Source: Chitinispirillaceae bacterium (GTDB lineage Bacteria > Fibrobacterota > Chitinivibrionia > Chitinivibrionales > Chitinispirillaceae). From it: DNA of 14,903 bases. The stretch is from the NCBI GenBank assembly GCA_016926315.1, contig JAFGOU010000432.1:1-14903 (forward strand), read 5' to 3'. The notes beneath the pieces are model-generated. The model was not told the DNA's origin and did not search any database. It worked only from the letters and a program-made list of their open reading frames with translations. This document shows positions 1,648-14,832 of the stretch, one piece after another (positions within the stretch are counted from its first letter, which is position 1; each line of letters opens with the position of its first letter). A program made the position numbers and the translations under genes.

Positions 1648-1711
1648 GCGGTTTCCTTTCTTTGCCGTACAGGGGAGGTTTGCTCGATTACCTCATTTAA
1701 AGATTGTTGGC

Positions 1712-2389
1712 TTAGTTTTCCAAAAAAAAGCCGTCATAATCCGCCTCCGCATACGACCTGGTGTTGTCGGCGTCGGACATGATCCCGATCGCGACAATTT
1801 CCGGAGGCTCGGCCGAGTACAGCCTTCGATAATCGTCGTGCACGTTGACCTTTTCGGCTATCCACGATCCGAGTTTTTCAGCTCCGCTCCTGACGACGAT
1901 AATTTTCGTTCTGGAGGAGTAGGGACTCTGGGTGACGGTACCTGGCGGCAGCGTCGTGCTCCACACATATTTGACAATGTTGTTCATCCAGAAATGGCCG
2001 CGAAAAATAACATACACCCCGGCGCCGCTATCAGCCTTTTTTTTATCATTTTCCCTGGCTCCCTCAGGAAGGACATGGGCTCTCCATCGCCAGAGCAGAA
2101 AACGCATACCGGCCCCGCGGGAATAAACCCTTTTCCCTATTGCCGTATATCCATGCCGGCTGCGGATTTTGACAAAATAATTTCCTTTTTCCTGCTCGAG
2201 CGAATACATGCTTACGTCCGGTTTGGTGGCGTCCCAACCGCATGGAAGCCTGGTTTTGGCGTCGAGGCACAGGTCAAAAGTATCGATTAGGAGACGATCG
2301 GTGACGTTATTCTGCTTCGAAGAGGAGGAACCCGGAAGAATAAGGAGGAACGTGACAAATCCCGTAAAAAGCAGAGGATGCCTCCTCAT
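1712..2389 (-). CDS. DUF3047 exported protein
   Basis: The 225-aa product begins with a signal peptide: basic MRRH, then a hydrophobic stretch of about 15 residues ending in PGSSSS. It is therefore expected to be exported to the periplasm. The mature part matches the DUF3047 pattern as I know it: a TFD-like opening with LPCGWD, a W-R-W strand near the middle, AGVYVIFRG, IKYVWS-type and VVRSG segments, and a C-terminal IGIMSDADNTRS-AEADYDGFFL. The function is unknown; the fold is probably a beta sandwich. The start at 2389 was chosen over an upstream in-frame ATG at 2470 because it begins the signal peptide and has AAGGGG 8 nt upstream. The sigma-54 element at 2481-2467 also overlaps the longer start. 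Pirin follows on the same strand. Confidence 0.85.
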   Translation of the reverse strand: MRRHPLLFTGFVTFLLILPGSSSSKQNNVTDRLLIDTFDLCLDAKTRLPCGWDATKPDVSMYSLEQEKGNYFVKIRSRHGYTAIGKRVYSRGAGMRFLLWRWRAHVLPEGARENDKKKADSGAGVYVIFRGHFWMNNIVKYVWSTTLPPGTVTQSPYSSRTKIIVVRSGAEKLGSWIAEKVNVHDDYRRLYSAEPPEIVAIGIMSDADNTRSYAEADYDGFFLEN

Positions 2390-2466
2390 CGAACAACCCC
2401 TTGTCGCTGATTTGTTGTATCTGCCGGTGAACCCGGCTTTTGGGCAGAGAACGACTCTGAATTTCC

Positions 2467-2481
2467 GCAAATACTATACCA
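2467..2481 (-). promoter_or_regulatory. Sigma-54 (-24/-12) promoter for DUF3047
   Basis: Read on the minus strand the site is TGGTATAGTATTTGC. It has GG and GC separated by exactly 10 nt and fits the RpoN consensus TGGYAYRN4TTGC throughout. The -12 GC ends 77 nt before the DUF3047 start at 2389, so transcription should begin near 2456. It is the best of the five similar elements in this window. An enhancer-binding protein would have to bind within the PCD1 coding region upstream. Confidence 0.72.
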
Positions 2482-2489
2482 ACGGCCTT

Positions 2490-2594
2490 TTATTTCTCCT
2501 CCGGTTCCGCTTCAGGAGCCGACCCGGCAGGGGAAAGCATGGTTGGGAAATGCTCGCGTATCCGCTCCTCCATTTCCCGGTACATCTCCTCCAT
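2490..2594 (-). CDS. Possible 34-aa acidic helical small ORF
   Basis: An open frame between PCD1 and the DUF3047 promoter encodes a heptad-like, Glu-rich peptide beginning MEEMYREMEERIREHF and ending APEAEPEEK. The frame stays open upstream into the PCD1 3' end (as DLTHLDRAIDE) but has no upstream ATG and no convincing ribosome site. It could be a genuine small protein, the displaced 3' end of a lost gene, or chance. The biased composition resembles real coding sequence more than a shadow. I do not recognise it. Confidence 0.22.
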   Translation of the reverse strand: MEEMYREMEERIREHFPTMLSPAGSAPEAEPEEK

Positions 2595-2620
2595 CTCATC
2601 GATCGCGCGATCAAGGTGCG

Positions 2621-2956
2621 TCAGGTCGAGATGATGCCGTCGATCTTCGATGCCAGGATAAAATCATTTTCCGACAACCCTTTGACTGCATGGGTCGAGA
2701 GTTCGATGGTCACCGTGCGATAGTCAATCTTTATGGACGGATGGTGGTCCTCGTCTTCAGCAAGAATGGCGACGCTGTTCACGAATCCGACCGCCTCCAT
2801 GAACGTTCCGAAGTAAAAACGCTTGGTCAACCGGTGAACGCCGCTTTTATCCAGCTCCCATTGCGACAGCTCGCGAAGCAGGTCGTTCTCGGCATTTTCG
2901 GTCAGCGGTGTTCCGCCCTTTTCGCAGGGGATACAGGATTTTTGTTGAAGCTTCAT
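2621..2956 (-). CDS. phhB: Pterin-4a-carbinolamine dehydratase (PCD1)
   Basis: PCD dehydrates 4a-hydroxytetrahydropterin, recycling the cofactor used by pterin-dependent hydroxylases; some bacterial members are proposed to act in molybdopterin metabolism. The 111-aa protein has the complete active-site motif in register: E67, H71-H72-P73, Y79, H89 and D98, with the terminal SENDFILASKID. The N-terminus carries CIPCEKGG (C8, C11), a CxxC seen in a subgroup of PCD-like proteins that could bind metal. It starts 23 nt after the stop of the pncA remnant, so it was probably the last gene of a pncB-pncA-PCD transcript. The ribosome site is weak (GTGGGA). A second copy with an altered active site lies at 10467-10844. 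Confidence 0.93.
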   Translation of the reverse strand: MKLQQKSCIPCEKGGTPLTENAENDLLRELSQWELDKSGVHRLTKRFYFGTFMEAVGFVNSVAILAEDEDHHPSIKIDYRTVTIELSTHAVKGLSENDFILASKIDGIIST

Positions 2957-2979
2957 CGGGTTTTCCCACTTTCCAACGG

Positions 2980-3261
2980 TTAATGGGTGAATGGAGCAAT
3001 AACGTTTACCCCGGCTGCTTTCATCTCTTCAACCGCGCGTTCGACATCCCCGGCCTGTGCCTCGACTCCCCTGCAGGCCGCAAGCAGTATATGCGTGGTA
3101 AAGCCGAGTTCCACGGCATCCAGGGCGGTATATTTAACACAGTAGTCTGCAGCCAGACCGGCCAGATAGACGTTGTGTACACCCTTTTCATGAAGGTATA
3201 CCCCCAATCCGGTCGCCTTTTTATGGAGATTGTCGAAAAAGCCGCTGTAACTGTCGATGTT
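2980..3261 (-). pseudogene. pncA: Nicotinamidase 3' remnant
   Basis: About 93 residues match the C-terminal half of PncA, which converts nicotinamide to nicotinate in NAD salvage. Visible blocks are DSYSGFFDN, HKKATGLG, the nucleophile Cys in ADYCVKYTALDA and ACRGV, with EEMKAAGVNVI near the end. The N-terminal half with the catalytic Asp and the metal-binding region is missing, and so is a usable start. Homology begins abruptly at 3261-3259, where it abuts a nicotinate phosphoribosyltransferase fragment in another frame. This is a deletion product and is not expected to be active. Confidence 0.85.
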
Positions 3262-3436
3262 CCAGTCCGCACATGATGGTAAACCCGCCATTAAACGGAT
3301 TCTCCCTGAAATGCATATGAAAGACCGACTCCTTGGCACCCGCACCGGATTTCCAATAGCCATAGGCCATGGTCAGTTCATACAGATCGGCAAACAGCGC
3401 AAGTGATCGTTTGTAAAGTTCGTCCTGGTGCCTCAC
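3260..3436 (-). pseudogene. pncB: Nicotinate phosphoribosyltransferase 5' remnant
   Basis: The first ~59 residues of an NAPRT remain: LALFADLYELTMAYGYWKSG, then VFHMHFRENPFNGGF and CGLE. This N-terminal signature is specific to the family, which makes nicotinate mononucleotide from nicotinate. The start is a GTG at 3436 with AGGAG 8 nt upstream. After CGLE (3262-3260) the homology stops and the DNA continues as pncA in a different frame. Some 85 percent of the usual ~430-490 residues is lost, including the active site. The translated frame runs on for about 12 unrelated residues to a stop near 3221. Confidence 0.85.
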
Positions 3437-3463
3437 GATTTTTGACTCCTGCTTTTTTGGAAC

Positions 3464-3675
3464 CGGATGTTACGATGGTTTATTTCAGCACTGCCGTTCG
3501 CGGATTCACCAACCCGGCAAACGGCACCGATAATGCTAAAGGTGCGGCGTATAATGACCTGGCAGCAAAGCGTTCCAGGAGGCTAATGAAGGGGTTATTA
3601 AGAGAGCTTTTCACCGTACCGGCAACCGGAAAGCGATACCGCCTCCTCAGGTCAGATTCGACGTCTATGGCATGA
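3464..3675 (+). pseudogene. Dienelactone hydrolase 3' fragment with altered catalytic His
   Basis: From about 3464 the plus strand encodes MVYFSTAVRGFTNPANG, TDNAKGAAYN and SRRLMKGLLRELF. This aligns without gaps to the C-terminal ~55 residues of the intact gene at the left edge (MVYIGNAVHGFTNPANG, SDNSKGLAYS). The nucleophile and Asp regions are absent, and the catalytic His is Arg (VRGF for VHGF). Upstream sequence belongs to the 5' end of the divergent pncB remnant, so the two broken genes abut head to head. An ORF can be read from an ATG at 3403, but its first 20 residues do not look like DLH. Not expected to function. Confidence 0.8.
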
Positions 3676-3832
3676 GACTGGCACCAGTACCTCTGCAGCC
3701 TCGCAACGAACGCTGACGGATTTCTCCCCGCTACACTCGTCGAAATGACATCGCACCCCACCGGCAGTAATTTTTATTATGAAACCCTTGACAGGTCACC
3801 ACGAATAAAACCGGTGGTTATTTGTCACCGTA

Positions 3833-4072
3833 TCATGCAACGTTCATTATTCTGGCTGTGTTTTTCTGCTGCTGGATGTCGGATTTTCCGGAATAGTTGT
3901 TTCGTGCAACCGTTTTTTCCTTACGTCCGGTTTCCAAAACCGCTTTGCCGAGTATTTCTTTTTCTGCCAGGATCCAGTCCTCGAGGGCAAAGCCGTCTTT
4001 TCGTCCGCGGGCTTCATAGAGTTCATGGGCCCTTTTCGCAATCTGTTCCTCTTTGGTGATGGTAACGCTCAT
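3833..4072 (-). CDS. DUF2934 small protein
   Basis: A 79-aa cytoplasmic protein with the DUF2934 core: ITKEEQIAKRAHELYEARG (residues 5-23) then KDGFALEDWILAEKEI (25-40), a short helical domain with invariant A-ELYE-RG and ALEDWL-AE motifs. The family has no known biochemical role; members often sit among stress and accessory genes. The C-terminal 35 residues are basic and low in complexity. The start at 4072 was preferred to an ATG at 4132 because it has AAAGGGG just upstream and a sigma-54 element at the right distance. The gene is divergent from DUF1540. Confidence 0.85.
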   Translation of the reverse strand: MSVTITKEEQIAKRAHELYEARGRKDGFALEDWILAEKEILGKAVLETGRKEKTVARNNYSGKSDIQQQKNTARIMNVA

Positions 4073-4128
4073 AAGAACCCCTTTCAATGATGAGGTGGAG
4101 GTTGAAAATCGATAACTCTTAATTTTTA

Positions 4129-4143
4129 GCAATTATCATTCCA
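4129..4143 (-). promoter_or_regulatory. Sigma-54 promoter for DUF2934
   Basis: The minus strand reads TGGAATGATAATTGC followed by T. GG-N10-GC spacing is exact and TTGCT is the consensus -12. The only departure from TGGYAYRN4TTGCW is A at the fourth base. It ends 56 nt before the start at 4072. The same bases include an AT-rich block that resembles a Fur half-site, but the sigma-54 match is better. Confidence 0.65.
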
Positions 4144-4325
4144 TGTCGCAGTCCGTCGCCGCAACAAGCAATAAGGTAAACAAAAAGGCGGTAGAAGACC
4201 CATTCGGCAAAGGACGATTATCGAAAATGAGAAGGTTTTTCTCACCATTATGCCGGCAAAGCCGGAACGGCAGGGTAACCGTGGTCTATGAATAATCGAT
4301 GATAGAAACTGCCCGGTTTTTAAAA

Positions 4326-4340
4326 TGGCATATCTTTTGC
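4326..4340 (+). promoter_or_regulatory. Sigma-54 promoter for DUF1540 and the redox genes after it
   Basis: TGGCATATCTTTTGC matches TGGCAYRN4TTGC at every fixed position, with GG and GC ten bases apart. It ends 55 nt before the DUF1540 start at 4396 and would initiate near 4352. It is the only good promoter seen ahead of the DUF1540, superoxide reductase and bacterioferritin genes. Confidence 0.72.
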
Positions 4341-4395
4341 GGGGAAAGAGGTCTATCAGACATCTACCCCTCCTCATTTTCGAAAGGAGTCACTT

Positions 4396-4686
4396 ATGTC
4401 AACTGATCTCCCCGAGGTCGGCATGTGCAACGTCGGCAAATGTGTGTACAACTACTCTGGAAAATGCTGCACCTACGGCATCAATGTCGGCGGTCCGGAA
4501 CCGTTGTGCGACACCTATTATTCCAACGGTAAAAAAGGCGGGATACCGGAATTCCTCGCCAAGGTGGGCGCCTGCAAAGTCGATAACTGCATTCACAACC
4601 AGTCGTATGAATGCAGCGCCAGCGGAGTGGACATCGTGGCCGTCGGTAATCGCGCCGAATGCGCCACGTTTCAGTCGCGATTATAG
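4396..4686 (+). CDS. Tandem DUF1540 cysteine-rich protein
   Basis: A 96-aa soluble protein made of two DUF1540 repeats of ~32 residues joined by a linker. Repeat 1 has C11, C16, C24/C25 and C38 in MCNVGKCVYNYSGKC...CDTY; repeat 2 has C60, C65, C73 and C89 in ACKVDNCIHNQSYEC...CATF. The four-Cys spacing suggests a small metal or zinc-binding fold. The family function is unknown. The start has a strong AAAGGAG. It is the first gene after the sigma-54 promoter and lies 57 nt before the superoxide reductase, from which it is separated by a stem-loop. Single-repeat versions are common, so the double form is worth noting. Confidence 0.85.
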   Translation: MSTDLPEVGMCNVGKCVYNYSGKCCTYGINVGGPEPLCDTYYSNGKKGGIPEFLAKVGACKVDNCIHNQSYECSASGVDIVAVGNRAECATFQSRL

Positions 4687-4687
4687 T

Positions 4688-4710
4688 ACCGCCCGTTTTT
4701 CACGGGCGGT
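4688..4710 (+). other. Stem-loop between DUF1540 and superoxide reductase genes
   Basis: A perfect 8-bp stem, ACCGCCCG/CGGGCGGT, with a 7-nt loop TTTTTCA begins 2 nt after the DUF1540 stop. No T-run follows, so it is not a classical terminator. It may stabilise the upstream mRNA or reduce read-through and so set the ratio between the two genes. Confidence 0.55.
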
Positions 4711-4743
4711 TCATCACCCCTACCACGATTCGGGAGGAACGAC

Positions 4744-5178
4744 ATGAGCATCAACCAGTGCAGTGCTTGCGGCCACATTGAATTCGGCGAGGCGCCGGAA
4801 CGGTGCCCGGTCTGCAAATCACCAAAAGAAAAATACCGGCGGAATGACACGATCTTCGAAGAATCGAGCGCAAAAAGCAAGGAGGCCGCGGTAAAGCACA
4901 TCCCCGCCGTCACGGTCAATAAAAAATGCGGCTTGATTCCGGAACACTCCTGTACCGATATCATCGTCCGCATCGGAGCGACCATGCATCCGATGGATGC
5001 GGCCCACTTCATCCAGTTTATCGACTGTTACGTCGACGGGAAGTATGTTTCGCGAATTACGCTGACGCCGGGGGTGTTTGCCGCGGGATGCTTCCATCTC
5101 AAGGCCACGGGAACGAAAGCGACGATAGTGGAATCCTGTAACATCCACGGCGTCTGGAAGGCGGAAACGGATCTCTGA
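4744..5178 (+). CDS. Superoxide reductase with N-terminal rubredoxin-like domain
   Basis: Reduces superoxide to hydrogen peroxide without making O2, typical of anaerobes. Residues 6-24 form a rubredoxin-type Fe knuckle pair (CSAC, CPVC: C6, C9, C21, C24) of the rubrerythrin C-terminal style rather than the desulforedoxin type. Residues ~48-142 are the neelaredoxin/SOR domain. The Fe(His)4Cys ligands are all present: H52 (KHIP), H82 (MHPM), H88 (AHF), C132 and H135 (CNIHGVW). The catalytic Lys (K51) is kept, but the Glu that normally precedes it in EKH is Val50. The start has GGGAGGA 5 nt upstream. The fused knuckle pair is probably an internal electron relay. The downstream ferritin-like protein and FAD reductase are plausible partners. 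Confidence 0.92.
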   Translation: MSINQCSACGHIEFGEAPERCPVCKSPKEKYRRNDTIFEESSAKSKEAAVKHIPAVTVNKKCGLIPEHSCTDIIVRIGATMHPMDAAHFIQFIDCYVDGKYVSRITLTPGVFAAGCFHLKATGTKATIVESCNIHGVWKAETDL

Positions 5179-5235
5179 GAGACTCCACAGAACATCTCAT
5201 TTTCGGCAGGGGTCCGGTAATGGAGAGAATCTCTC
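5172..5235. repeat. Two related palindromes between SOR and bacterioferritin-like genes
   Basis: TCTCTGAGAGA (5172-5182, overlapping the SOR stop codon) and GAGAGAATCTCTC (5223-5235) are each perfect inverted repeats and share the TCTCT/AGAGA arms, 40 bp apart. They could form local hairpins, pair with each other in the mRNA, or be a two-site operator for the ferritin gene. No regulator is assigned. Confidence 0.45.
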
Positions 5236-5296
5236 GCGTGCCGGGCCCTTCCCAACGTATTCCCGTCAACGAACACTCTTTCCTCCAGGAGGAGCC

Positions 5297-5719
5297 ATGC
5301 AGATAACCGTCCCGATGCTCATTGAGTTACTGAACAAAGACCTTGAACTCGAGTTCTCCGCCGCCATCCAGTATATCAACCATGCTGCGGTCATGAAAGG
5401 CGCGGCGTACGGCGATATCATCAAGGAGCTGAAAATCCATGCGAACGAGGAGATCCAGCACGCGATCATCCTCGCCGACCAGATCGATTACCTGAAAGGT
5501 AAACCAAGTATCGGCGTGGGTCCGATCCATACTCACGACGACAACGTCGAAATGCTGACGCAGGACCTGGATGGTGAGGAGGACGCGATTCGCAGGTACA
5601 AGATCAGGATCGATCAGGCCGAGCACCTCAAGGAATTCGCCCTTTCGCAGCAGTTGCGCACCATTCTGGCCATGGAACAGGAGCATGCCATGGACCTGGA
5701 GCAGGCGCTGGGGAGATGA
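5297..5719 (+). CDS. Bacterioferritin/Dps-type ferritin-like protein
   Basis: A 140-aa four-helix-bundle protein of the ferritin superfamily, likely storing iron or detoxifying peroxide in the cytoplasm. Diiron ligands fit the bacterioferritin pattern: E19 (ELEF, with Y26 seven residues on), E52 and H55 (EEIQH), E94 (with Y101) and E127/H130 (MEQEH). It is shorter than E. coli Bfr (158 aa), and no haem-ligand Met is obvious at the usual place, so haem binding is unproved. The start has AGGAGGAG 4 nt upstream. It lies 118 nt after the superoxide reductase and probably handles the peroxide and iron that go with superoxide reduction. Confidence 0.88.
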   Translation: MQITVPMLIELLNKDLELEFSAAIQYINHAAVMKGAAYGDIIKELKIHANEEIQHAIILADQIDYLKGKPSIGVGPIHTHDDNVEMLTQDLDGEEDAIRRYKIRIDQAEHLKEFALSQQLRTILAMEQEHAMDLEQALGR

Positions 5720-5767
5720 TCGTTTTCTCCCGGAGAACTGCTCTGTCGGCGGCCGTATAACCTATGT

Positions 5768-5800
5768 TTTTTTCCCTGCGTCGCATCAGACGGGAAAAAA
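5768..5800. other. Inverted repeat between ferritin-like and FAD reductase genes
   Basis: TTTTTTCCC (5768-5776) and GGGAAAAAA (5792-5800) are perfect complements around a CGTC-GCATCA-GACG inner stem. The polarity (T-tract in the 5' arm, A-tract in the 3' arm on both strands) is opposite to an intrinsic terminator. A TTGACA at 5817 follows, but no good -10 is seen at normal spacing, so a sigma-70 start here is doubtful. Confidence 0.4.
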
Positions 5801-5864
5801 GCGGCATCCGACACGGTTGACAAGGCATGATTTTTATTGTTCTTTTTTCACCGCAGGAGGTCCG

Positions 5865-7070
5865 ATGGCGGCGAATAATTTCACCTATGTGATTATCGGC
5901 GGCGGTCTCGCCGGAGCGTCGGCAATAACGGGAATCCGGGAGATCGACAAAAACGGTTCCCTGTTGCTGGTGGGAAGGGAACCCCACCTGCCCTATGACC
6001 GGCCCCCTCTCAGCAAAAAACTCTGGTCCGGAAAGAAAAAGGTCGAGGAGCTATTCGTTCATTCAGAAGAGTATTACGACCAGAACGGCGTTACCGTGCT
6101 GAGGGGTAATACCGTTCAGGTCGTGGACCCGCAACGGTCAACAATCACCGACGCGACAGGGCAGACCTTTGGATTCAAAAAACTACTGCTGGCGACCGGT
6201 GCGACTCCCCGAAACCTGTCAATTCCCGGGAGTGATATGGACGGGTTGTGTTATTTTCGCAACCTTGAAGATTACCTGAACTGCCGAAGCCGTGCCCTGG
6301 AGGGACGGTCGGCGGTCGTCATCGGCGGCGGATTCATGGGATCGGAAATCGCCGCAGCACTTTCCATCAACGCATTGAAGGTCACCATGATTTTTCCGGG
6401 ACCCTACCTCTGCAGCCGGATATTTCCAAGGGATCTCGGAAGTGCGCTTCAGCGGCGTTACGAAGAGCGGGGGGTGGTTGTTGTCGCGGAGGATACGCCA
6501 ATGGCATTCGAAAAAAACGGCGAGGGGTTTATAACCGTCACTGAAAAAGGGAAAAGGATTCTCTCTGATCTGGTGGTCATCGGCGTCGGCGTTGAACCCG
6601 AACAGCGTCTGGCAACGGCGGCCGGTATAAAGACCGGCAACGGGATCATCGTCAATGGCTATCTGGAAACGTCATATCCGGGAATCTACGCCGCGGGCGA
6701 TAACGCCCGGTTTCCCTACCAGGCGCTCGGCAAGTCCATGCGCATTGAGCACTGGGACAATGCACTTAACCAGGGGAGACTGGCAGGAAGGAATATGGCA
6801 GGCGCTTCAGAATCGTATACCTACATGCCCTATTTTTTCTCCGATCTGTTTGAGTTCGGTTATGAAGCCGTGGGCGATATCGATTCGACGCTCGAAATTT
6901 ATGCCGACTGGGAAAAAGAAAACGATACCGGCATACTCTATTACCTGAAAGACAACATCGTCAGGGGGGTGTTGATGGGTAATGTATGGGATAAGATACC
7001 CGCGGCACGGGAGCTTATCCGGAAAGCCGATCAGGTCAGCCGCCAGAGCTTGACGGGAACGATACGGTAA
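5865..7070 (+). CDS. FAD-dependent NAD(P)H oxidoreductase, ferredoxin/rubredoxin reductase type
   Basis: A 401-aa flavoprotein of the AIF/BphA4/putidaredoxin-reductase group, which passes electrons from NAD(P)H to a small iron-sulfur or rubredoxin carrier. An FAD Rossmann motif IIGGGLAG is at residues 10-17, the diagnostic YDRPPLSKKLW follows near 45, LLATGATPR near 109, a second NAD(P) motif VIGGGFMGSE at 152-161, and the FAD-contacting YAAGDNARF near 279. The C-terminal reductase domain includes YMPYFFSDLF and RGVLMGNVWDK. The frame runs open upstream to 5571, but ATG 5865 begins the Rossmann domain and has GCAGGAGG 6 nt ahead. The SOR knuckle or the rubrerythrin-like protein are candidate acceptors (inference). 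The SDR gene follows after 21 nt. Confidence 0.92.
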   Translation: MAANNFTYVIIGGGLAGASAITGIREIDKNGSLLLVGREPHLPYDRPPLSKKLWSGKKKVEELFVHSEEYYDQNGVTVLRGNTVQVVDPQRSTITDATGQTFGFKKLLLATGATPRNLSIPGSDMDGLCYFRNLEDYLNCRSRALEGRSAVVIGGGFMGSEIAAALSINALKVTMIFPGPYLCSRIFPRDLGSALQRRYEERGVVVVAEDTPMAFEKNGEGFITVTEKGKRILSDLVVIGVGVEPEQRLATAAGIKTGNGIIVNGYLETSYPGIYAAGDNARFPYQALGKSMRIEHWDNALNQGRLAGRNMAGASESYTYMPYFFSDLFEFGYEAVGDIDSTLEIYADWEKENDTGILYYLKDNIVRGVLMGNVWDKIPAARELIRKADQVSRQSLTGTIR

Positions 7071-7091
7071 CCCCCAACCGGAGGAGACGGG

Positions 7092-7841
7092 ATGTCGCTT
7101 ATCGAGAACCGCGCATCCGCCCTGGCCGGCAGGACCGCGGTAATCACCGGCGCGTCGAAGCGCATCGGCCGCGAGATCGCGCTCTCGCTTGCCGCTGAAG
7201 GGGCGGGTGTCGTTGTCCATTACCGGCGTTCGGCACGTGAGGCCGCGACCGTATGCGACGAGATCCGGCAATACGGCGTGGATGCCTGGGCAATCGGCGC
7301 CGACCTGGGGAGCGCCGGCGATGTCAATGCCTTTATCGGCCGGGCACTGGAGATCGCGGGTAACGTGGATATCCTCATCAACAACGCCTCCCTGTTCACC
7401 AAGAGCACGCTGAGCGATATCACGTTTGATGACCTGCTCAATACGATGATGGTCAACGCATGGTCGCCGCTGGTGCTGTGCCGTGAGTTTAAAAAACTCG
7501 TGGGGAAGGGCGCCATTGTCAATATCCTGGACAGCCGGATCGCCGGTCACGATCCGTCCCATCTCGGTTACCACCTGAGCAAGCGTACGTTTTACGCCCT
7601 GACGCTGGCAATGGCCGTCGAGTTCGCCCCGGACATCACCGTCAACGCGGTGGCCCCCGGCGGTATCCTGCCGCCACCGGGGAAGGATCGCGCCTACCTC
7701 GAACAGCTCGCTGCCGGAATCCCCCTGAAACGTCACGGCGACCCGCAGGATGTCTCCCATGCCGTCAATTTCCTGCTGAGCAGCGGCTTTATTACCGGCC
7801 AGGTACTTTTCGTGGACGGGGGCTCGCACTTATATGGATAG
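7092..7841 (+). CDS. SDR oxidoreductase of pteridine reductase (PTR1/FolM) type
   Basis: A 249-aa short-chain dehydrogenase. The nucleotide motif is TGASKRIG (19-26), with the Lys-Arg typical of NADPH-dependent pteridine reductases. INNAS is present near residue 95. The catalytic set is D147, Y160, K164 with 13- and 4-residue spacing, matching the Asp-Tyr-Lys of Leishmania PTR1 (D181, Y194, K198) rather than the usual Ser-Tyr-Lys. It overlaps folB and stands ahead of folK, so a role reducing dihydropterin (dihydromonapterin or dihydrofolate) is likely. Enzymes of this type can stand in for DHFR or make a tetrahydropterin cofactor. The C-terminus GQVLFVDGGSHL is standard for SDRs. The ribosome site is GGAGACG. 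Fatty-acid or sugar SDR activity is a less likely alternative. Confidence 0.87.
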   Translation: MSLIENRASALAGRTAVITGASKRIGREIALSLAAEGAGVVVHYRRSAREAATVCDEIRQYGVDAWAIGADLGSAGDVNAFIGRALEIAGNVDILINNASLFTKSTLSDITFDDLLNTMMVNAWSPLVLCREFKKLVGKGAIVNILDSRIAGHDPSHLGYHLSKRTFYALTLAMAVEFAPDITVNAVAPGGILPPPGKDRAYLEQLAAGIPLKRHGDPQDVSHAVNFLLSSGFITGQVLFVDGGSHLYG

Positions 7842-7845
7842 GAAA

Positions 7846-8202
7846 ATGGACAGGATAATGATCAATGACCTCGCCGCTCGCTGCATCATCGGCACCAATG
7901 AATCAGAGCGTACGCTGAAACAGGACGTGCTCATCACGATTTCGCTCTATACCGACCTTGCCAAGGCCGGGAAAAGCGACCGGATCGAGGACTCGGTTGA
8001 TTATCGCACATTGAAAAAAAAAGTGCTCGCCCTGGTGGAAAATTCAAGTTTTTTCCTGGTGGAGTCGCTGGCTGCGGCAATCGCAGAGATCTGCCTTGCG
8101 GATCCCAGGGTCGTTGAAACCCGGGTGATGGTGGAAAAACCGGGTGCCCTGCGCTATGCCCGAAGCGCAGGCGTCGAGATCCGGCGGGAACAAAGGAAAT
8201 AG
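7846..8202 (+). CDS. folB: Dihydroneopterin aldolase
   Basis: Cleaves 7,8-dihydroneopterin to 6-hydroxymethyl-dihydropterin in folate synthesis and can epimerise it to dihydromonapterin. The 118-aa protein opens MDRIMINDLAARCIIG and has the expected E21 (NESER), Y53 (VDYRTL), E73 (LVESLA) and catalytic K98 in VEKPGALRYARS. The start is uncertain: in-frame ATGs at 7834, 7846 and 7858. I chose 7846 because family members begin at MDRI. The 7834 start would overlap the SDR stop by 8 nt. No choice has a strong ribosome site, which suggests translational coupling to the SDR. It is followed 4 nt later by folK. Confidence 0.93.
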   Translation: MDRIMINDLAARCIIGTNESERTLKQDVLITISLYTDLAKAGKSDRIEDSVDYRTLKKKVLALVENSSFFLVESLAAAIAEICLADPRVVETRVMVEKPGALRYARSAGVEIRREQRK

Positions 8203-8206
8203 CTCA

Positions 8207-8905
8207 ATGACCCGGGCTTTTATCGGCATCGGATCAAATATTCACCCTGAAGAAAATTTCAGGGAGTCGATCCGGCTCTTGTCTCATTCCGTCACCATTG
8301 CCGCCATTTCCACCGTGTACCAAACCGAACCGGAAAACCGACCGGACCAGCCGCCCTATCTCAACGGTGTCGTGGCGATTGAGACCGGCAGGTCGCCGCT
8401 CTACCTGAAATATCGCCTGTTGCGCCTGATCGAGGAAAAGCTCGGCAGGTTGCGAACCGACGATAGGTACGCTTCGCGCACCATCGATCTCGACCTTTTG
8501 CTGTACGACGATGTTACCATTGCGACTGAGGAGCTCGTTCTTCCTGACCCTGACATTTTCCGCCGTCCCTACGTGGCCATTCCCCTTGCTGAACTGGCCC
8601 CGGGGCTCGTTATTCCCGGTATGGAGGTTCCGATTGAGGTGGTTTCCGGGAGTCTCCCGCGAAACGCCATGAAAGCCCTGCCCCGCTTTACCGAGTCTTT
8701 GCTCAGAATAGTGCCGCCGATGCCAAGGCGCCTGAATGCCGGAGATAGTGAAAAACGAGATATCACCGATACGCTAGCAGGCAACAGAGAAAAAACACCG
8801 GGAAAGGAGGGAGATGCACATGGCAATAGTGCGGTGCGCTTTTTTCGACACGAAACCGTACGATCGGGAGTTTTTCGATCAGGCCAACGACCCGGCCTCG
8901 ATTGA
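8207..8905 (+). CDS. folK: HPPK (pyrophosphokinase) with C-terminal extension
   Basis: Transfers pyrophosphate from ATP to 6-hydroxymethyl-dihydropterin. The start at 8207 has AAAGGAA and lies 4 nt after folB. Conserved parts are FIGIGSN (5-11), TVYQTEP (36-42), YLNGVV, R91-TIDLDLLLYDD (catalytic D94 and D96) and the IPLAELAP close. Two oddities stand out. The LPHP motif is LPDP, so the ATP-binding His (H115 in E. coli) is Asp114. The protein also runs to 232 residues, about 70 more than usual, the extra being charged and low-complexity and its last ~30 codons lying inside ldhA. The family assignment is clear; full activity is not certain. Confidence 0.9.
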   Translation: MTRAFIGIGSNIHPEENFRESIRLLSHSVTIAAISTVYQTEPENRPDQPPYLNGVVAIETGRSPLYLKYRLLRLIEEKLGRLRTDDRYASRTIDLDLLLYDDVTIATEELVLPDPDIFRRPYVAIPLAELAPGLVIPGMEVPIEVVSGSLPRNAMKALPRFTESLLRIVPPMPRRLNAGDSEKRDITDTLAGNREKTPGKEGDAHGNSAVRFFRHETVRSGVFRSGQRPGLD

Positions 8906-9908
8906 AATCACCTATTTCGATCCGCACCTCAATCGCGAAACGGTCAGGCTGGCCGAAGGTTTTGATGCCGTATGCGTTTTCGTAAATGATGAGCTGTCCG
9001 CGGAAGTCATTGAACGGCTGTATCGCTACGGCGTCCGTCTTATTGCCCTGCGCTGCGCAGGCTATAACAATACCGACCTGAAAAGCGCTTACGGAAAGCT
9101 TCACGTGGTGCGCGTTCCCGCGTATTCCCCGCATGCGGTTGCCGAACATGCAACGGCGCTGATGCTTGCTCTTAACCGCAAAACGCACAAAGCCTATAAT
9201 CGGACCCGCGAGATGAATTTTTCGATCACCGGATTGCTCGGGTTCGATTTGCACGGGAAAACGGCGGGCATCATCGGCACCGGTAAAATCGGCCGGGTCC
9301 TGGCGCAAATACTCAAAGGGTTCGGCATGCGGGTGCAGGCATACGATGTTGAACCCGACCATGCGCATGCATTGAAGGCGGGATTCACCTATACGACGAT
9401 TGAGGGTATCTTCAGCGAATCCGACATTATTTCACTCCATTGCCCCTTGACATCAAACACCACACATCTGGTCAACAAGGAGACGATTGCGGCGATGAAA
9501 GACGGGGTGATGATCATTAATACCGGCCGCGGCAAGCTGATTAACACGCAAGACCTTGTTAATGGGTTGAAAAAGAGGAAAATAGGGTCCGCGGGTCTGG
9601 ATGTCTACGAAGAGGAGAGCGAGTATTTTTTTGAGGATTATTCGAGTACGGTGCTGACCGACGATGTGCTTGCGCGGCTGATGACGTTCCCCAACGTTCT
9701 TATTACTTCGCACCAGGGATTTTTTACACGCGAAGCGCTCGAGGCGATCGCAAAAACCACCCTTTCGAATATCAGTGATTTTTTCGCGACCGGGATTTTA
9801 AAAAATGAAATCAGTCATCACCAGGGTGCCGGCAGAACCGACCATTCCCCGCGTGGCATGCCGAAAACCGCCCGCTCATATCACCCAGGGGAAGGAGGCG
9901 GACGATGA
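8820..9908 (+). CDS. ldhA: D-lactate dehydrogenase (2-hydroxyacid dehydrogenase family)
   Basis: Reduces pyruvate to D-lactate with NADH in fermentation; cytoplasmic. Numbered from 8820, substrate-side R78 is in LRCAGYNN, the NAD motif GTGKIG is at 153-158, and the catalytic triad is R237 (NTGRGKLI), E266 (DVYEEE) and H298 (TSHQGFF). FFED and the SHQGFF-TREAL helix are typical of LdhA. ATG 8814 is two codons upstream, but GGAGG lies only 3 nt from it and 9 nt from 8820, so 8820 is the better start. Both overlap the folK 3' end by about 90 nt. The family usually ends near FFATG-LKNE; about 30 extra residues follow, rich in His, Pro and Gly. Other 2-hydroxyacids cannot be excluded. Confidence 0.92.
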   Translation: MAIVRCAFFDTKPYDREFFDQANDPASIEITYFDPHLNRETVRLAEGFDAVCVFVNDELSAEVIERLYRYGVRLIALRCAGYNNTDLKSAYGKLHVVRVPAYSPHAVAEHATALMLALNRKTHKAYNRTREMNFSITGLLGFDLHGKTAGIIGTGKIGRVLAQILKGFGMRVQAYDVEPDHAHALKAGFTYTTIEGIFSESDIISLHCPLTSNTTHLVNKETIAAMKDGVMIINTGRGKLINTQDLVNGLKKRKIGSAGLDVYEEESEYFFEDYSSTVLTDDVLARLMTFPNVLITSHQGFFTREALEAIAKTTLSNISDFFATGILKNEISHHQGAGRTDHSPRGMPKTARSYHPGEGGGR

Positions 9909-10018
9909 ATCCGTTTATCGGTCAATGGTTGATGGGAATAGTGGTTCTTGTGCCGCATCGTTTAACCTGTCAGAATAGAAAAACAAATACTCATGTGCAG
10001 AATTCTTGTTGTAGATGA
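9905..10018 (+). CDS. 37-aa ORF translationally coupled to ldhA
   Basis: ATG 9905 overlaps the ldhA stop as ATGA and has AAGGAGG 6 nt upstream, the strongest ribosome site in this part of the window. The peptide starts MNPFIGQWLMGIVVLVPH, a hydrophobic segment, and ends QNSCCR after reading 26 nt into the response regulator gene in another frame. It may be a small membrane peptide, a coupling leader that brings ribosomes to the response regulator (which lacks its own Shine-Dalgarno), or the surviving 5' end of a deleted gene. No family recognised. Confidence 0.4.
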   Translation: MNPFIGQWLMGIVVLVPHRLTCQNRKTNTHVQNSCCR

Positions 10019-10367
10019 CGAAGAGGTGGTTCTCTTTGCCTTTAAAAAGGTCTTAAGCGGGCCGACGGTAACCGTGGACACCGCGCCCTCATTCGGGGAA
10101 GCGAGAAGGTTGATCCAGTTGAAGTCGTATTCGGCGATTATAACCGATTTGCGACTCTCGGGTACGGAGGTGAAGGATGGTCTGGCGGTCATAAAGGAAA
10201 CAAGGAGAATTCAAACCGAGTGCAAATTAGTCGTGATTACGGGGTATGGTGAAAGTGACACGCGGGAAAAGGTATTCAGTCTTGGCGCCGATGTTTATAT
10301 CGAGAAACCGGTCGCTCCCGAAAAAATAAAAGAACTCCTTCAATCGATGGGAACAATGCCAACATGA
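9993..10367 (+). CDS. Receiver-only response regulator
   Basis: A 124-aa CheY-like receiver with no output domain. Acidic pair D8-D9 (VVDDEE), phosphoacceptor D52 (IITDLRLSG), T83 (VVITGYGE) and K105 (YIEKPV) are all present, so phosphorylation is expected. Lacking a DNA-binding or AAA domain, it must act by protein contact, or on a hybrid kinase or an enhancer-binding protein elsewhere. It has no ribosome site at ATG 9993, consistent with coupling to the preceding 37-aa ORF. Its closest relative in view is the receiver at 14250-14630, which shares VDDEE-VLF-F, VDTA, DLRLS, SLGAD and EKPV blocks. No kinase gene is adjacent. Confidence 0.9.
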   Translation: MCRILVVDDEEVVLFAFKKVLSGPTVTVDTAPSFGEARRLIQLKSYSAIITDLRLSGTEVKDGLAVIKETRRIQTECKLVVITGYGESDTREKVFSLGADVYIEKPVAPEKIKELLQSMGTMPT

Positions 10368-10373
10368 AAGAAA

Positions 10374-10426
10374 GAACCTGTTACCGCGCAGCCGGATGAA
10401 AGGCAGACGCTGGTAATGGCAGGTTC
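10374..10426. other. Inverted repeat between convergent genes
   Basis: GAACCTG-TTACC (10374-10385) pairs with GGTAA-TGG-CAGGTTC (10412-10426), a 12-bp stem with a 3-nt bulge between the stop codons of the receiver gene and PCD2. The palindrome CGGTATACCG (10426-10435) abuts it. A long T-run is missing, so I call it a probable transcript-end hairpin rather than a defined terminator. Confidence 0.45.
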
Positions 10427-10466
10427 GGTATACCGGTCCAGGAATGGACGGCACGTACATTGGTAC

Positions 10467-10844
10467 TCATAACATGGCGGATTCATATACCCCGTATGCC
10501 GGCAACCTGACGACGGAATAGAGATCGTCGATTTTCGCGGCCATGATAAAGTCGTTTTCGGAAAGCCCTTGCACGGCAGGGGTGGTGAGCGTGACGACTA
10601 CCTTCCGGTACTCTATCGTTATTGTTGGATGGTGTTCCTCATCGTTGGCCGCGATAGCAACACTATTTGCAAACCCGACCGCTTCCACGAAGGTACTGAA
10701 AGTGAACTCCTTGAAAAGCCGGTGTATGCCGCTCCGATCAAGGTTCCAAGAAGGAACTTCCCTCAGAAGTTTCTCCTCGGCAGGGGCAGAAATCGGGGGT
10801 TCTCCTTTTTTACACGGAACACAGTTTTTGATCCTGAACGTCAT
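10467..10844 (-). CDS. PCD-like protein with altered active site (PCD2)
   Basis: A 125-aa paralogue of PCD1 that aligns to it without a gap over residues 1-106 at about 60 percent identity (counted by eye). It keeps the N-terminal CVPCKKG (C8, C11), H71-H72-P73, Y79 and D98, but residue 67 is Asn for Glu and residue 89 is Pro for His. These are two positions of the PCD signature. It also has a 15-20 residue C-terminal extension ending YESAML. Dehydratase activity may be weak or lost; a binding or chaperone role is possible. ATG 10844 was chosen over TTG 10856 because GGAGG sits 5 nt upstream. It follows the rubrerythrin-like gene by 18 nt and is probably cotranscribed with it. Confidence 0.9.
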   Translation of the reverse strand: MTFRIKNCVPCKKGEPPISAPAEEKLLREVPSWNLDRSGIHRLFKEFTFSTFVEAVGFANSVAIAANDEEHHPTITIEYRKVVVTLTTPAVQGLSENDFIMAAKIDDLYSVVRLPAYGVYESAML

Positions 10845-10862
10845 CTTTCCCTCCAATGATGG

Positions 10863-11363
10863 TTAAAATTCTTCCGCGTGGCGCCATTCGGCATTTTCAA
10901 GCCACTCACCAGGATGCCGCAGAAAATCGGCTAGCGCGGTAATGGTATTAATATGGTTGCGTTCCTGTCCGATGATTTTCAGTAAAAGCGCCCTTTCGTG
11001 CGCTATGGCCGATTCATCCCGGTCCAGCATCTCTGTATAGAGATCGATGCTCTTCTTCTCCAGATCAAGCGCCAGGTCAAATATCTGGCTTCTGCTGAAA
11101 AACTCTCCTGAGGTTACCATAAATTGCCCGCTTAACCGTTCAAAGACCATTGATGGATTATCGACCAGAGGAAGAACCTGTTCCAGATCCGGCAGTGGCT
11201 CCTTCTTCTGCCATTTTTCGAAAACTTCAAAATGCTTGCGTTCCTCCCGGGCAAGGTCGGCGAAAATTCCACGATATTCCCGGGTCTGGCACTTTTTTGT
11301 CAGATCATCATAGAAATCAACTGCTTTCGCTTCAAGCGCTTTGGCCATGCCGAGCAGGTCCAT
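10863..11363 (-). CDS. Rubrerythrin-like diiron ferritin-fold protein
   Basis: A 166-aa protein with two helix-pair halves, each carrying an ExxH: E11 (with Y18), E41/H44 (EERKH), E102 (with Y109) and E134/H137 (QERNH). This is the ligand set of the rubrerythrin diiron domain, which reduces peroxide. There is no rubredoxin domain, so electrons must come from a partner such as the knuckle pair on the SOR or a separate rubredoxin (inference). The ribosome site AAAGGA precedes ATG 11363, and a sigma-70-like promoter lies at 11440-11412. PCD2 follows after 18 nt. The closing segment HPGEWLENAEWR resembles that of sulfate-reducer ferritin-like proteins. Confidence 0.88.
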   Translation of the reverse strand: MDLLGMAKALEAKAVDFYDDLTKKCQTREYRGIFADLAREERKHFEVFEKWQKKEPLPDLEQVLPLVDNPSMVFERLSGQFMVTSGEFFSRSQIFDLALDLEKKSIDLYTEMLDRDESAIAHERALLLKIIGQERNHINTITALADFLRHPGEWLENAEWRHAEEF

Positions 11364-11411
11364 GTGCCCCGTCCTTTCTCATTATTAAGTTCATTTTTCT
11401 CATTTTCGGTA

Positions 11412-11440
11412 AAAATACACTCATCATTAACTCCTATCAA
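11412..11440 (-). promoter_or_regulatory. Sigma-70-like promoter for rubrerythrin-like gene
   Basis: The minus strand has TTGATA (11440-11435), a 17-bp spacer, and TATTTT (11417-11412), about 48 nt ahead of the start codon. No -24/-12 element with correct spacing is present here (the nearest, around 11453-11468, has GG-N9-GC). This gene pair therefore appears to be outside the sigma-54 group. Confidence 0.5.
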
Positions 11441-11505
11441 ATCCTTAATGGTACTGCTCCTTTTTTCCAATTCAATAGTTGTTTCAAGATTGGAGGAACC
11501 TTTCC

Positions 11506-11796
11506 ATGAAAGCCTTTGCCTGCCTTATAGGTGCAATGGCATTATCAATGCCATCATTTTCCTATTCGGAGAGCAGTTACCGATGCGGGTCAAAAATTAT
11601 CACCGTCGGCACCGCGATGCAAATCGTCAAGTTGCATTGCGGCGATCCGGAAGAACGGGATATTATCGGAGAGATCACCAAAAAACCGGCCGTCATTGAT
11701 GCTTTACGCCCGGTCCTGTCGATCTCCTTTCCCGCCAGGACATGCGGGATTCATTGCCTTTGCCTTTATCGTGCCGGGACAGGCTTCCGTAAATGA
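11506..11796 (+). CDS. DUF2845 exported protein, C-terminus probably lost
   Basis: A 96-aa product with a signal peptide (MKAFACLIGAMALSMPSFSYS) and the start of a DUF2845 domain: YRCGSKIITVGTAMQ (25-39) and HCGDPEE (44-50), with the two family Cys at C27 and C45. Family members continue with a W-Y-FGP-type strand and a C-terminal strand. Here residues after ~57 do not match and end in a Cys-rich run. The last 31 bp overlap the 3' end of the opposing metal-binding gene. I infer a deletion or frameshift after about 11675 rather than a normal short form. The start has TTGGAGGAA. A secreted role is likely; no biochemical function is known. Confidence 0.65.
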   Translation: MKAFACLIGAMALSMPSFSYSESSYRCGSKIITVGTAMQIVKLHCGDPEERDIIGEITKKPAVIDALRPVLSISFPARTCGIHCLCLYRAGTGFRK

Positions 11797-12035
11797 AGTT
11801 TCATCCCGCAGAGAGGACACTTGCCCGCCTCACCCAGACGAACCTGAGGATGCATGGGACAGGTGTAGTAACTGGCGCCGGCCGTATCCGGATTTTCCAT
11901 CGATGGAGATGCAGACTCTTTTTGCCAGTCTGTTTTCGCGCCCTCCGGTCTCTGGCACATCGGGACAACCGCAAGCAGAAGAGCAATAGCGCCGGTCGCC
12001 GCAACAAAGCTCGAATAAACCTTTTTTTTAGCCAT
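11766..12035 (-). CDS. Exported heavy-metal-binding-domain protein
   Basis: An 89-aa protein with a basic N-terminus, a hydrophobic segment (residues ~10-24) and a Cys at 27 (VVPMC) that could be lipidated, although the lipobox is not ideal. Residues 57-81 are the heavy-metal-binding domain, YYTCPMHPQV...GKCPLCGMKL, with C59, M61, H62, C73, C76 and M78. This motif is found at the N-terminus of copper ATPases and CusB-like proteins. Standing alone it is probably a periplasmic or lipoprotein copper/heavy-metal scavenger. The start at 12035 has GGGAGGAG and was chosen over 12065. A sigma-54 promoter lies 79 nt upstream. The 3' end overlaps that of DUF2845. Confidence 0.8.
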   Translation of the reverse strand: MAKKKVYSSFVAATGAIALLLAVVPMCQRPEGAKTDWQKESASPSMENPDTAGASYYTCPMHPQVRLGEAGKCPLCGMKLHLRKPVPAR

Positions 12036-12114
12036 GACTCCTCCCTTGTGTTGAGGTAACATCATGCAGTGCGATACATGATATCTGTTACACTTTTTTA
12101 AACACCATAGCAGC

Positions 12115-12129
12115 GCAAATATCAGGCCA
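12115..12129 (-). promoter_or_regulatory. Sigma-54 promoter for heavy-metal-binding protein
   Basis: The minus strand reads TGGCCTGATATTTGC: exact GG-N10-GC spacing, a perfect TTGC and Y-R at the expected places, with C instead of A at the fifth base. The -12 end lies 79 nt before ATG 12035, with initiation expected near 12103. Confidence 0.62.
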
Positions 12130-12272
12130 AGGCTACCATGCGGGTGAAGGTATCAGGAAATAACCAAACTTATCCGGATTGAAGGTCGGAGGTACGTTGA
12201 TTTTTGATTTTCAGGAATAAGGCCCTGCCGGACGGTCATCGATATCCTATCACCTGCCCTACCCGGTGTCAA

Positions 12273-12287
12273 TGGAATGCCATTTGC
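12273..12287 (+). promoter_or_regulatory. Sigma-54 promoter for degenerate ferritin-like gene
   Basis: TGGAATGCCATTTGC followed by T. GG-N10-GC is exact, and only the fourth base departs from TGGYAYRN4TTGCW. It shares TGGAATG with the DUF2934 promoter. It ends 79 nt before ATG 12367. Confidence 0.66.
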
Positions 12288-12366
12288 TTCGTAAAACAGG
12301 AAACAACGCGTCATTTGTGTGTGGCCTCGATAGACGGAGAGACTATTTTTCCAAAAGGATTCAACT

Positions 12367-12954
12367 ATGAAAAGCATAGGAAATTTTATCGAGCAAATTC
12401 ATTTTACTTTTCTGGAATCCGATGACGGCAGCCAGAGCATGCAAACAGACCCTACCTTCAGGGATTTTTTAAGATTTGTCGCGATTCAGCAAAGTCTGCA
12501 GACGGCCAGGATCTATGAAAACCTTGCCGAAAAGGTGTTTCCGGAAGAACAGAAATATTTTTTTTCCGACATGACTGATCTGAAACACAGTGAAATAGAA
12601 TGTCTTTTACGATACCGGTCCGACGGTCGCATTGTTTCACTCGAGACGAAAAACCCTATGACGCGTGCCCCATGGCCGGGTAAACCGGGAGTCAAAAGGT
12701 TCGCCACGCTTCAAAACGCCTGCCGATTCGCCATGAACAAAGAACTGGAAACGTACTGCTTATACCTGCGGCTTGCCGACCTGGAGGAGGAGCTGGTGAC
12801 CAAACGGCTGTTTTTATTTCTTGTCCGCCTGCAGAAATGCAGCCTCAACTACGTACAAAACAGGCTACAGTTGATTGCGAATCCGCAAGGGAGCGCGACT
12901 CCCGACGACGCCGCCTCGGCATGCACCCGCCATTCATTCGCCAGGATTGCCTGA
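12367..12954 (+). CDS. Degenerate ferritin-like (rubrerythrin-fold) protein
   Basis: A 195-aa soluble, mostly helical protein with the two-half layout of the rubrerythrin family. Half 1 (~35-82) runs FVAIQQSLQTARIYENLAEK and DMTDLKHSEIECLL; half 2 (~115-170) has FAMNKELETYCLYLRLADL and LFLFLVRLQKCSLNYV. Against the intact paralogue at 10863-11363, the first Glu is Ser43, the first ExxH is D71-LK-H74, the second Glu is kept (E126), and the second ExxH is Q156-KC-S159. The diiron site is therefore probably not functional as such, though a single metal might bind. An unrelated fold is possible. The start has AAAAGGA 8 nt upstream and its own sigma-54 promoter. The C-terminal 25 residues are disordered-looking. 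Confidence 0.6.
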   Translation: MKSIGNFIEQIHFTFLESDDGSQSMQTDPTFRDFLRFVAIQQSLQTARIYENLAEKVFPEEQKYFFSDMTDLKHSEIECLLRYRSDGRIVSLETKNPMTRAPWPGKPGVKRFATLQNACRFAMNKELETYCLYLRLADLEEELVTKRLFLFLVRLQKCSLNYVQNRLQLIANPQGSATPDDAASACTRHSFARIA

Positions 12955-12977
12955 ATCGGTATGTCGTCGATGCATAA

Positions 12978-13196
12978 AAAGGTCGCTCAGCAAGACATCC
13001 TGACGTGGCGGCGCTTTCGTCCCGCTGTACCCATAGGGAGTGCGATCTCCCGCTTCCCGCCAACAACCGGATCACCTGCCCGTGTCACGGTTCGCAATTC
13101 GACGGGGCCGGGAACCTGGCGAGCGGGCCTGCGACAAGAAACCTGAGGAAATACGATACGACGCTGCAGGGGACTGCGGTCACCATCAATGCATAA
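12978..13196 (+). pseudogene. Rieske [2Fe-2S] protein 3' fragment
   Basis: The frame encodes LSSRCTHREC, then CPCHGSQFDGAGN and GPATRNLRKYDTT, the two cluster-binding loops and C-terminal strand of a Rieske protein. All four ligands (two Cys, two His) and the two disulfide Cys are visible. There is no ATG: the frame opens after a TAA at 12975, and only a GTG at 13005 is available, just 6 codons before the CTH loop. The first beta strands, and any Tat or membrane anchor, are missing. The family is normally at least ~100 residues and often ~140-170. It is read as a 5'-truncated gene. The stop overlaps the ATG of the SRPBCC frame. Confidence 0.72.
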
Positions 13197-13728: not shown

Positions 13729-13952
13729 GAGGTTGTCGCTTTATCCGTACGGAGGTATGGAGTAGTGGTAATACACGATCGAACAGCGCCGGGAAATCAG
13801 CGTGGTTCCGGGTCGTCCGAACCGGAAAAAAACGTTAAGCAACATCTTTTCAAAAAACTCGTCATCCAGACCCAATGCATTTGGTTGCCCGATAACCGTT
13901 GATTATTTTTTCATCACAGGAACCCTCCTGCCACGCCAGCGGACATTTTTCA

Positions 13953-13982
13953 TTACCGGAAATCCCTCTGCCGGTAAGAGGG
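13953..13982 (+). other. Overlapping alternative hairpins
   Basis: TTACCGG (13953-13959) pairs with CCGGTAA (13971-13977). CCCTCT (13964-13969) can instead pair with AGAGGG (13977-13982). The two stems exclude each other, as in an attenuator, and lie just before the PAS fragment. The rest of the gap from 13729 to 13992 shows no gene. Confidence 0.25.
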
Positions 13983-13992
13983 TCTCGATACA

Positions 13993-14238: not shown

Positions 14239-14249
14239 ATAGCAGCGGT

Positions 14250-14746: not shown

Positions 14747-14832
14747 CTGTATATTAACGTTGCGACCGCGACTCGATGTTCAATTTAAACCGCTTTATTC
14801 ATAAATTCCAACAAGATTTCACCGCAGAGGCG

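Follow-up and report, generated by a model that had tools for sequence, protein, structure and literature searches.

The probable sigma-54 promoter elements of the window

The window analyzed here is the whole 14,903-nucleotide (nt) stretch of contig JAFGOU010000432.1 from a Chitinispirillaceae bacterium (assembly GCA_016926315.1, positions 1–14,903, forward strand). It contains five short elements that, judging by their sequence, spacing, orientation and position, are very probably sigma-54 (RpoN) promoters. The elements were pointed out by a first-pass annotation of this DNA, and a search with the strict pattern finds all five where that annotation placed them, each on the expected strand:

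2467–2481 (−): probable sigma-54 promoter 1, TGGTATAGTATTTGC, upstream of the DUF3047 gene
4129–4143 (−): probable sigma-54 promoter 2, TGGAATGATAATTGC, upstream of the DUF2934 gene
4326–4340 (+): probable sigma-54 promoter 3, TGGCATATCTTTTGC, upstream of the DUF1540-superoxide reductase-ferritin row
12115–12129 (−): probable sigma-54 promoter 4, TGGCCTGATATTTGC, upstream of the heavy-metal-binding protein gene
12273–12287 (+): probable sigma-54 promoter 5, TGGAATGCCATTTGC, upstream of the ferritin-like protein gene

All five elements fall between gene models, and an Rfam scan of the window detects no RNA element at the promoters. The exact GG-N10-GC spacing with TTGC at −12 is present in five of five elements, and the previously noted intervals between the −12 end and the start codon (77, 56, 55, 79 and 79 nt, in the order listed) agree with the sequence when the DUF3047 start is taken as 2389. 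The aligned elements all share TGG, TTGC, T6 and a purine at position 7; in four of the five, position 5 is A and TTGC is preceded by T. The spacing and the TTGC motif agree with the sigma-54 consensus as given in the consulted parts of two papers (PMC2725144; PMC4641369); the form published in the first of these, mrNrYTGGCACG-N4-TTGCWNNw, comes from 186 promoters.

Frequency and placement of the elements

The strict pattern TGGNNTRNNNNTTGC occurs exactly five times in the window, compared with a mean of 0.23 and a maximum of 2 in 200 dinucleotide shuffles. This pattern was read off the five elements themselves, so that the figure overstates the case; hence, plainer and less fitted patterns were tried as well. 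TGG-N8-TTGC matches the same five sites and none else in the window. The shuffle mean for this pattern is 2.23 and five matches are reached in 155 of 2000 shuffles, so the count alone is unremarkable. All five matches lie on the coding strand 20–200 nt upstream of a gene start, which is termed proximal here and was judged against 24 hand-made gene models, degenerate genes included; proximal matches average 0.30 in the shuffles, with a maximum of 3, and five are found in none of 2000. The same half-sites at eight other spacings (N4–N7 and N9–N12) give 11 matches together, one of them proximal. The looser TGG-N9-TGC has 13 matches versus 7.9 expected, a number equalled in 14 of 200 shuffles.

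Scoring against the published YTGGCACG-N4-TTGCW was unweighted, with GG and GC obligatory, over 13 positions and 1000 shuffles. At 9 or more of 13 positions, the whole window has 17 matches versus 13.0 expected (149 shuffles have as many), and 5 of these are proximal versus 1.8 expected (27 shuffles). At 10 or more positions, there are 6 matches versus 3.0 expected (93 shuffles), with 3 proximal versus 0.41 expected (14 shuffles). With a −24/−12 weight matrix of approximate base frequencies, the five elements rank 1, 2, 3, 5 and 7 among all window positions; ranks 4 (3668, +) and 6 (378, −) are without a gene close downstream. The rank-4 site (3668–3683, +, TGGCATGAGACTGGCA) lies in a decayed region, and the nearest gene start on the same strand is 713 nt off.

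For background DNA, 162 loci from other bacteria were used, some of which overlap and which total 939 kb (GC content 0.52–0.62 by group versus 0.53 in the window). These contain 22 strict matches, or 0.35 per window length, and 150 matches to TGG-N8-TTGC, or 2.4 per window length, versus five of each in the window.

Genes downstream of the probable promoters

The predicted targets are the following:

1712–2389 (−): DUF3047 protein (Pfam PF11249, E = 1.1e-37, scanned from 2404)
3833–4072 (−): DUF2934 protein, 79 aa (Pfam PF11154, E = 5.3e-13)
4396–4686 (+): cysteine-rich DUF1540 protein, 96 aa (PF07561, E = 6e-9)
4744–5178 (+): superoxide reductase (desulfoferrodoxin family) with a rubredoxin-like N-terminal domain (PF01880, E = 3.7e-16; PF21349, E = 3.1e-8)
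5297–5719 (+): ferritin/bacterioferritin-like protein (PF00210, E = 1.9e-19)
5865–7070 (+), predicted start: FAD-dependent reductase, ferredoxin/rubredoxin reductase type (PF07992, E = 5.1e-60, scanned from 5769)
11766–12035 (−): small heavy-metal-binding-domain (HMBD) protein (PF19335, E = 3.7e-12, scanned from 12065)
12367–12954 (+): predicted four-helix ferritin-like protein, 195 aa, without ExxH

The clearest promoter target is the row of DUF1540, superoxide reductase, ferritin and reductase genes. The DUF1540 protein has 19 relatives on metagenome contigs; the alignment of the family (A1, 20 members) contains eight invariant cysteines, and the named relative is a protein from a Chitinispirillaceae metagenome-assembled genome (52%); the structure model (mean predicted local distance difference test score 38.9) is useless. 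The superoxide reductase scores under the NCBIfam cut-off for desulfoferrodoxin, and the FAD-dependent reductase is HcaD- and NorW-like, scoring under both cut-offs. Between the DUF1540 and superoxide reductase genes (about 4688–4710), a GC-rich hairpin, CCGCCCGT-loop-ACGGGCGG, without a T run, was noticed by eye; it may govern the relative amounts of the two transcripts.

For the DUF3047 protein, the N-terminus of which appears hydrophobic, the ATG located 77 nt from the −12 end was chosen as the start. The heavy-metal-binding protein, given its hydrophobic N-terminus, would be exported. At E = 0.001, the 195-aa protein matches no Pfam or NCBIfam family, and it has 13 relatives on metagenome contigs; its predicted structure is a four-helix ferritin-like fold, as in the ferritin superfamily. 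The diiron-ligand ExxH motif is missing from helices B and D in 14 of 14 members of this family, in which it differs from the ferritins and from the COG1633 protein 2oh3, so an ordinary diiron site is not expected. The protein earlier labelled "degenerate ferritin-like" is a predicted ferritin-like bundle lacking ExxH. The broader description of the targets as stress and metal proteins fits the DUF1540-superoxide reductase-ferritin row and the metal-binding protein, and does not demonstrably extend to DUF3047 and DUF2934.

Search for a common activator

The first-pass annotation combined the five elements into one RpoN regulon with a shared enhancer-binding protein. The promoter part of this proposal is well supported; a single common activator is not demonstrated, and no such gene was found in the window. 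The scanned window proteins, which represent part of the open frames, include no AAA+ enhancer-binding protein, and the gene could be elsewhere; both response regulators of the window match the receiver family only.

Two 8-mers, CCCTGCCG and ATCGATGA, are common to all three blocks upstream of the promoters. The first of these is a tentative candidate for an activator-site word:

2525–2532 (−): CCCTGCCG, tentative candidate activator-site word, upstream of promoter 1
4268–4275 (−): CCCTGCCG, tentative candidate word, between promoters 2 and 3
12223–12230 (+): CCCTGCCG, tentative candidate word, between promoters 4 and 5

At least two shared 8-mers turn up in 1 shuffle out of 2000. Among triples of real sequence, which may contain the promoter blocks themselves, this happens in 28 of 15131 noncoding ones and in 7 of 9416 taken from any part of the window. 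The order, orientation and distance of the two words vary from block to block; CCCTGCCG is found further at 5204, 10574 and 10778, and CATCGAT has nine matches in the window. Longer words common to the two divergent blocks do not go beyond the shuffles. As a sign of common activator sites, the shared 8-mers are only a hint, and the window sequence does not show that all five promoters are under one enhancer-binding protein.

The same gene families in other genomes

The annotation suggested a sigma-54 link of the DUF2934, DUF1540 and DUF3047 families, which was examined in 120 upstream regions, all from other phyla. Of the 36 DUF2934 loci, 29 were taken from a match list with many more entries and 7 from another search, one of the 7 recurring in that list. 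The 24 DUF1540 loci comprise 10 of 16 Nitrospirota rows (the remaining six represent the other repeat within these proteins; at one locus, the upstream region covers less than 300 nt) and 14 of 19 rows from the phylum of genome G005 (five weak rows were dropped). The 60 DUF3047 loci comprise 30 from Nitrospirota and 30 from the order of genome G007 (Gallionella), out of more rows. A strict −24/−12 element is found upstream of none of the 36 DUF2934 and none of the 24 DUF1540 loci. For DUF3047, it is found at 2 of 60 loci, namely at none of the 30 from Nitrospirota and at two of the 30 from the Gallionella order (L137, about 93 nt before an ATG, and L160). A search for rpoN in 80 of these genomes plus neighbours, including only 7 of the 30 Gallionella-order genomes, identified the gene in 70, so the missing strict elements are mostly not explained by an absent sigma factor.

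In a relaxed test, 450-nt upstream regions were scored with the approximate weight matrix (threshold of at least 11) and compared with other 450-nt windows of the same loci, controls that were not matched for intergenic content. In total, 13 of 120 regions versus 35 of 1123 control windows pass the threshold (p = 0.0003, uncorrected). The excess is clearest for DUF2934 (6/36 versus 11/318, Fisher p = 0.004); the values for DUF1540 are 0/10 versus 1/80 in Nitrospirota and 3/14 versus 6/135 in the phylum of G005, and those for DUF3047 are 2/30 versus 7/300 in Nitrospirota and 2/30 versus 10/290 in the Gallionella order. The best relaxed matches are at L057 (TGGTACGCAACCTGCA, DUF2934) and L085 (CGGCACAGCTTTTGCT, DUF1540). 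Because the controls are unmatched and three matches come from genomes in which rpoN was not found, the relaxed excess is a weak hint only. The suggested link gains no strict support in the phyla reached, where strict elements stand at 2 of 120 regions, both DUF3047; there is no strict conservation and, as a weak hint, occasional sigma-54 use of these families.

Among 148 Nitrospirota genomes, DUF2934 is present in 69, DUF1540 in 8 and DUF3047 in 76; the order of G007 has DUF3047 in 40 of 120 genomes, and the DUF1540 family A1 is found in 1 of 145 Omnitrophota genomes and in 17 of 201 genomes in the phylum of G005. The 195-aa family is represented in none of 198 Nitrospirota genomes and, in 384 Omnitrophota genomes, by one doubtful fragment with stops, both searches having been run with no positive control genome. 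The viral contigs searched yielded no relative; in plasmid searches, two queries had no match and one retrieved distant DUF1540 relatives. The named relatives of lactate dehydrogenase are scattered over several phyla.

Relatives of the FAD-dependent reductase come from metagenome-assembled genomes named Nitrospirae, Gallionella, Sulfuricella, Omnitrophota and others. A strict element is located close upstream of the reductase gene in 1 of 19 loci (L008, about 80 nt before the match), so a conserved promoter at this gene was rejected; in L004, the element is about 1 kb upstream, and L007 and L015 have less than 100 nt of upstream sequence.

In the Omnitrophota genome G321 (L038, 1498–2202, −), the gene for a tandem DUF1540 protein immediately follows those for a response regulator and, as judged by eye, a histidine kinase. 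This locus has no strict −24/−12 element, and rpoN was not found in G321.

Proposed mechanism and alternatives

Sigma-54 forms a closed complex at −24/−12 promoters that is opened by an upstream activator. We consider it likely that the window contains five sigma-54 promoters driving five units, with the main output being defence against oxygen, superoxide and free iron in an anaerobic host. RNA polymerase with sigma-54 would bind the five −24/−12 promoters and drive five transcription units, four of which would be arranged as two divergent pairs. The holoenzyme would stay in the closed complex until a presumed signal leads an enhancer-binding protein, bound upstream of the promoters or between them, to hydrolyse ATP. 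The main output would be a module, probably organized as an operon, consisting of the DUF1540 protein, the superoxide reductase with its rubredoxin-like domain, the ferritin and a reductase as a possible source of the electrons. As the gene content suggests, superoxide would be removed with electrons from NAD(P)H and iron would be stored in a host that is probably anaerobic. The second divergent pair would contribute the metal-binding protein and the ferritin-like protein, and the units might share this physiology.

Several observations weigh against this reading. Position 6 is T in five of five elements and C in the published consensus, a difference that is taken as host preference, and the published consensus, used unweighted, yields modest enrichment only. 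Of the sigma-70-like matches listed, the best, TTGACA-N17-TAGGAT at 12272–12244 (−), agrees at 10 of 12 positions, carries TG ahead of the second hexamer and is directed towards the metal-binding gene. Exact IHF, NtrC and NifA consensus sites are absent from the blocks searched. In other phyla, strict matches occur at just 2 of 120 genes though rpoN was found in 70 of 80 genomes tested, and three of the nine relaxed DUF2934 and DUF1540 matches (L065, L086 and L088) come from the genomes that yielded no rpoN.

The main rival explanation accepts the promoters as genuine and assigns them to different activators (nitrogen, envelope, metal and others), so that they would be neighbours owing to wide use of sigma-54, without forming a functional regulon. 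It is a substantial possibility that falls somewhat short of probable. The consulted part of a Desulfovibrio study reports 87 reconstructed sigma-54 promoters and a sigma-54 regulome of 36 regulons for D. vulgaris (PMC4641369), so adjacent promoters need not have a common activator; furthermore, no redox role is evident for DUF3047 or DUF2934, and the varying order, orientation and distance of the two 8-mers indicate no common activator-site arrangement. Yet five promoters in 15 kb are dense, and the sharing of at least two 8-mers by all three blocks is rare in shuffles.

Alternatively, the elements might be bound by a different factor (a repressor or some other sigma factor) with a motif that resembles −24/−12 by coincidence, and some of the genes might be transcribed from sigma-70 promoters; this is improbable. 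The elements are tighter than the general consensus (T6 in all five, A5 and the T before TTGC in four), and sigma-70-like matches fall in two upstream blocks: besides the one described above, 4299–4326 (+) and 4245–4217 (−) match at 9 of 12 positions each, and the scan gives 17 matches versus 10.8 (standard deviation 4.0) in shuffles. However, host-specific tightening of a consensus is usual, and it is typical of promoters that GG and GC are exactly N10 apart, that the strand is constant with respect to the gene and that the distances fall in a narrow range, here 55–79 nt. Chance clustering is highly improbable: the pattern was picked after the elements had been seen, and some shuffles match the window-wide counts for both the unweighted consensus and TGG-N8-TTGC, but none yields five proximal TGG-N8-TTGC matches, and the other spacings behave like background.

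The reading of five sigma-54 promoters serving oxygen and iron defence can be extended to a dedicated regulon of an uncultured anaerobic lineage, in which one activator, binding a site with CCCTGCCG, would switch on the operon together with DUF2934, DUF3047, the metal-binding protein and a new ferritin-like family whose diiron site would have been lost; this extension appears unlikely. Confirmation of the cluster would mean that, in one lineage, superoxide reductase and ferritin genes are controlled by sigma-54, and a common inducing condition for the uncharacterised DUF1540, DUF2934, DUF3047 and 195-aa families would make their function testable.

Other features of the window

A Pirin gene (739–1647, −) has one in-frame stop after codon 78. 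The region 2980–3675 looks decayed or rearranged: on the minus strand, the C-terminal part of an isochorismatase-like (nicotinamidase) protein lies beside the N-terminal part of a nicotinate phosphoribosyltransferase, and on the plus strand there is a piece resembling, by eye, the end of the dienelactone-hydrolase-like frame at 15–482. From the reductase onward (5865–8905, +), genes for the reductase, an SDR protein (pteridine reductase-like), a FolB-like and a FolK-like protein form a row. The same order, plus an inserted pterin dehydratase gene, is found in loci L003, L009, L018 and L014; the window has two pterin dehydratase genes located elsewhere (2621–2956 and 10467–10844). A group II intron domain (14833–14903, −; Rfam RF00029, 47.6 bits) is cut by the window end, and the remainder would lie beyond it.

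Comparison with known systems

A link between RpoN and superoxide reductase is not claimed as new, since papers naming both exist. The main text of a survey of sigma-54 regulons in 16 phyla (PMC12316311), in the part consulted, contains no mention of rubrerythrin, ferritin, Fibrobacter or Nitrospir-; the same is true of superoxide, ferritin and rubrerythrin in the consulted part of the Geobacter RpoN paper (PMC2725144), and of superoxide, ferritin and rubredoxin in that of the Desulfovibrio sigma-54 paper (PMC4641369).

As described in excerpts of PMC3897727, the orp operons of the anaerobe D. vulgaris are divergent and sigma-54-dependent, with the activator DVU2106 and IHF, and likewise have two divergent sigma-54 promoters in one intergenic region. 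The activator and IHF sites are known there, whereas in the window no activator gene is seen, no exact IHF consensus is present and the genes are different. In the zraP/zraSR system of enteric bacteria, a small metal-binding protein, ZraP, is likewise encoded in a divergent pair and expressed from a sigma-54 promoter (PMC4987338, in part). Its partner is a two-component system, whereas the partner of the HMBD protein in the window is the ferritin-like protein. Finally, norVW of E. coli and Salmonella, controlled by NorR, is likewise a sigma-54 operon that detoxifies reactive species under anaerobiosis, according to the same part of that source (PMC4987338). The window reductase matches NorW, under the cut-off, and no NorR-like gene is seen; in place of the flavorubredoxin of norVW, the window has superoxide reductase and ferritin.

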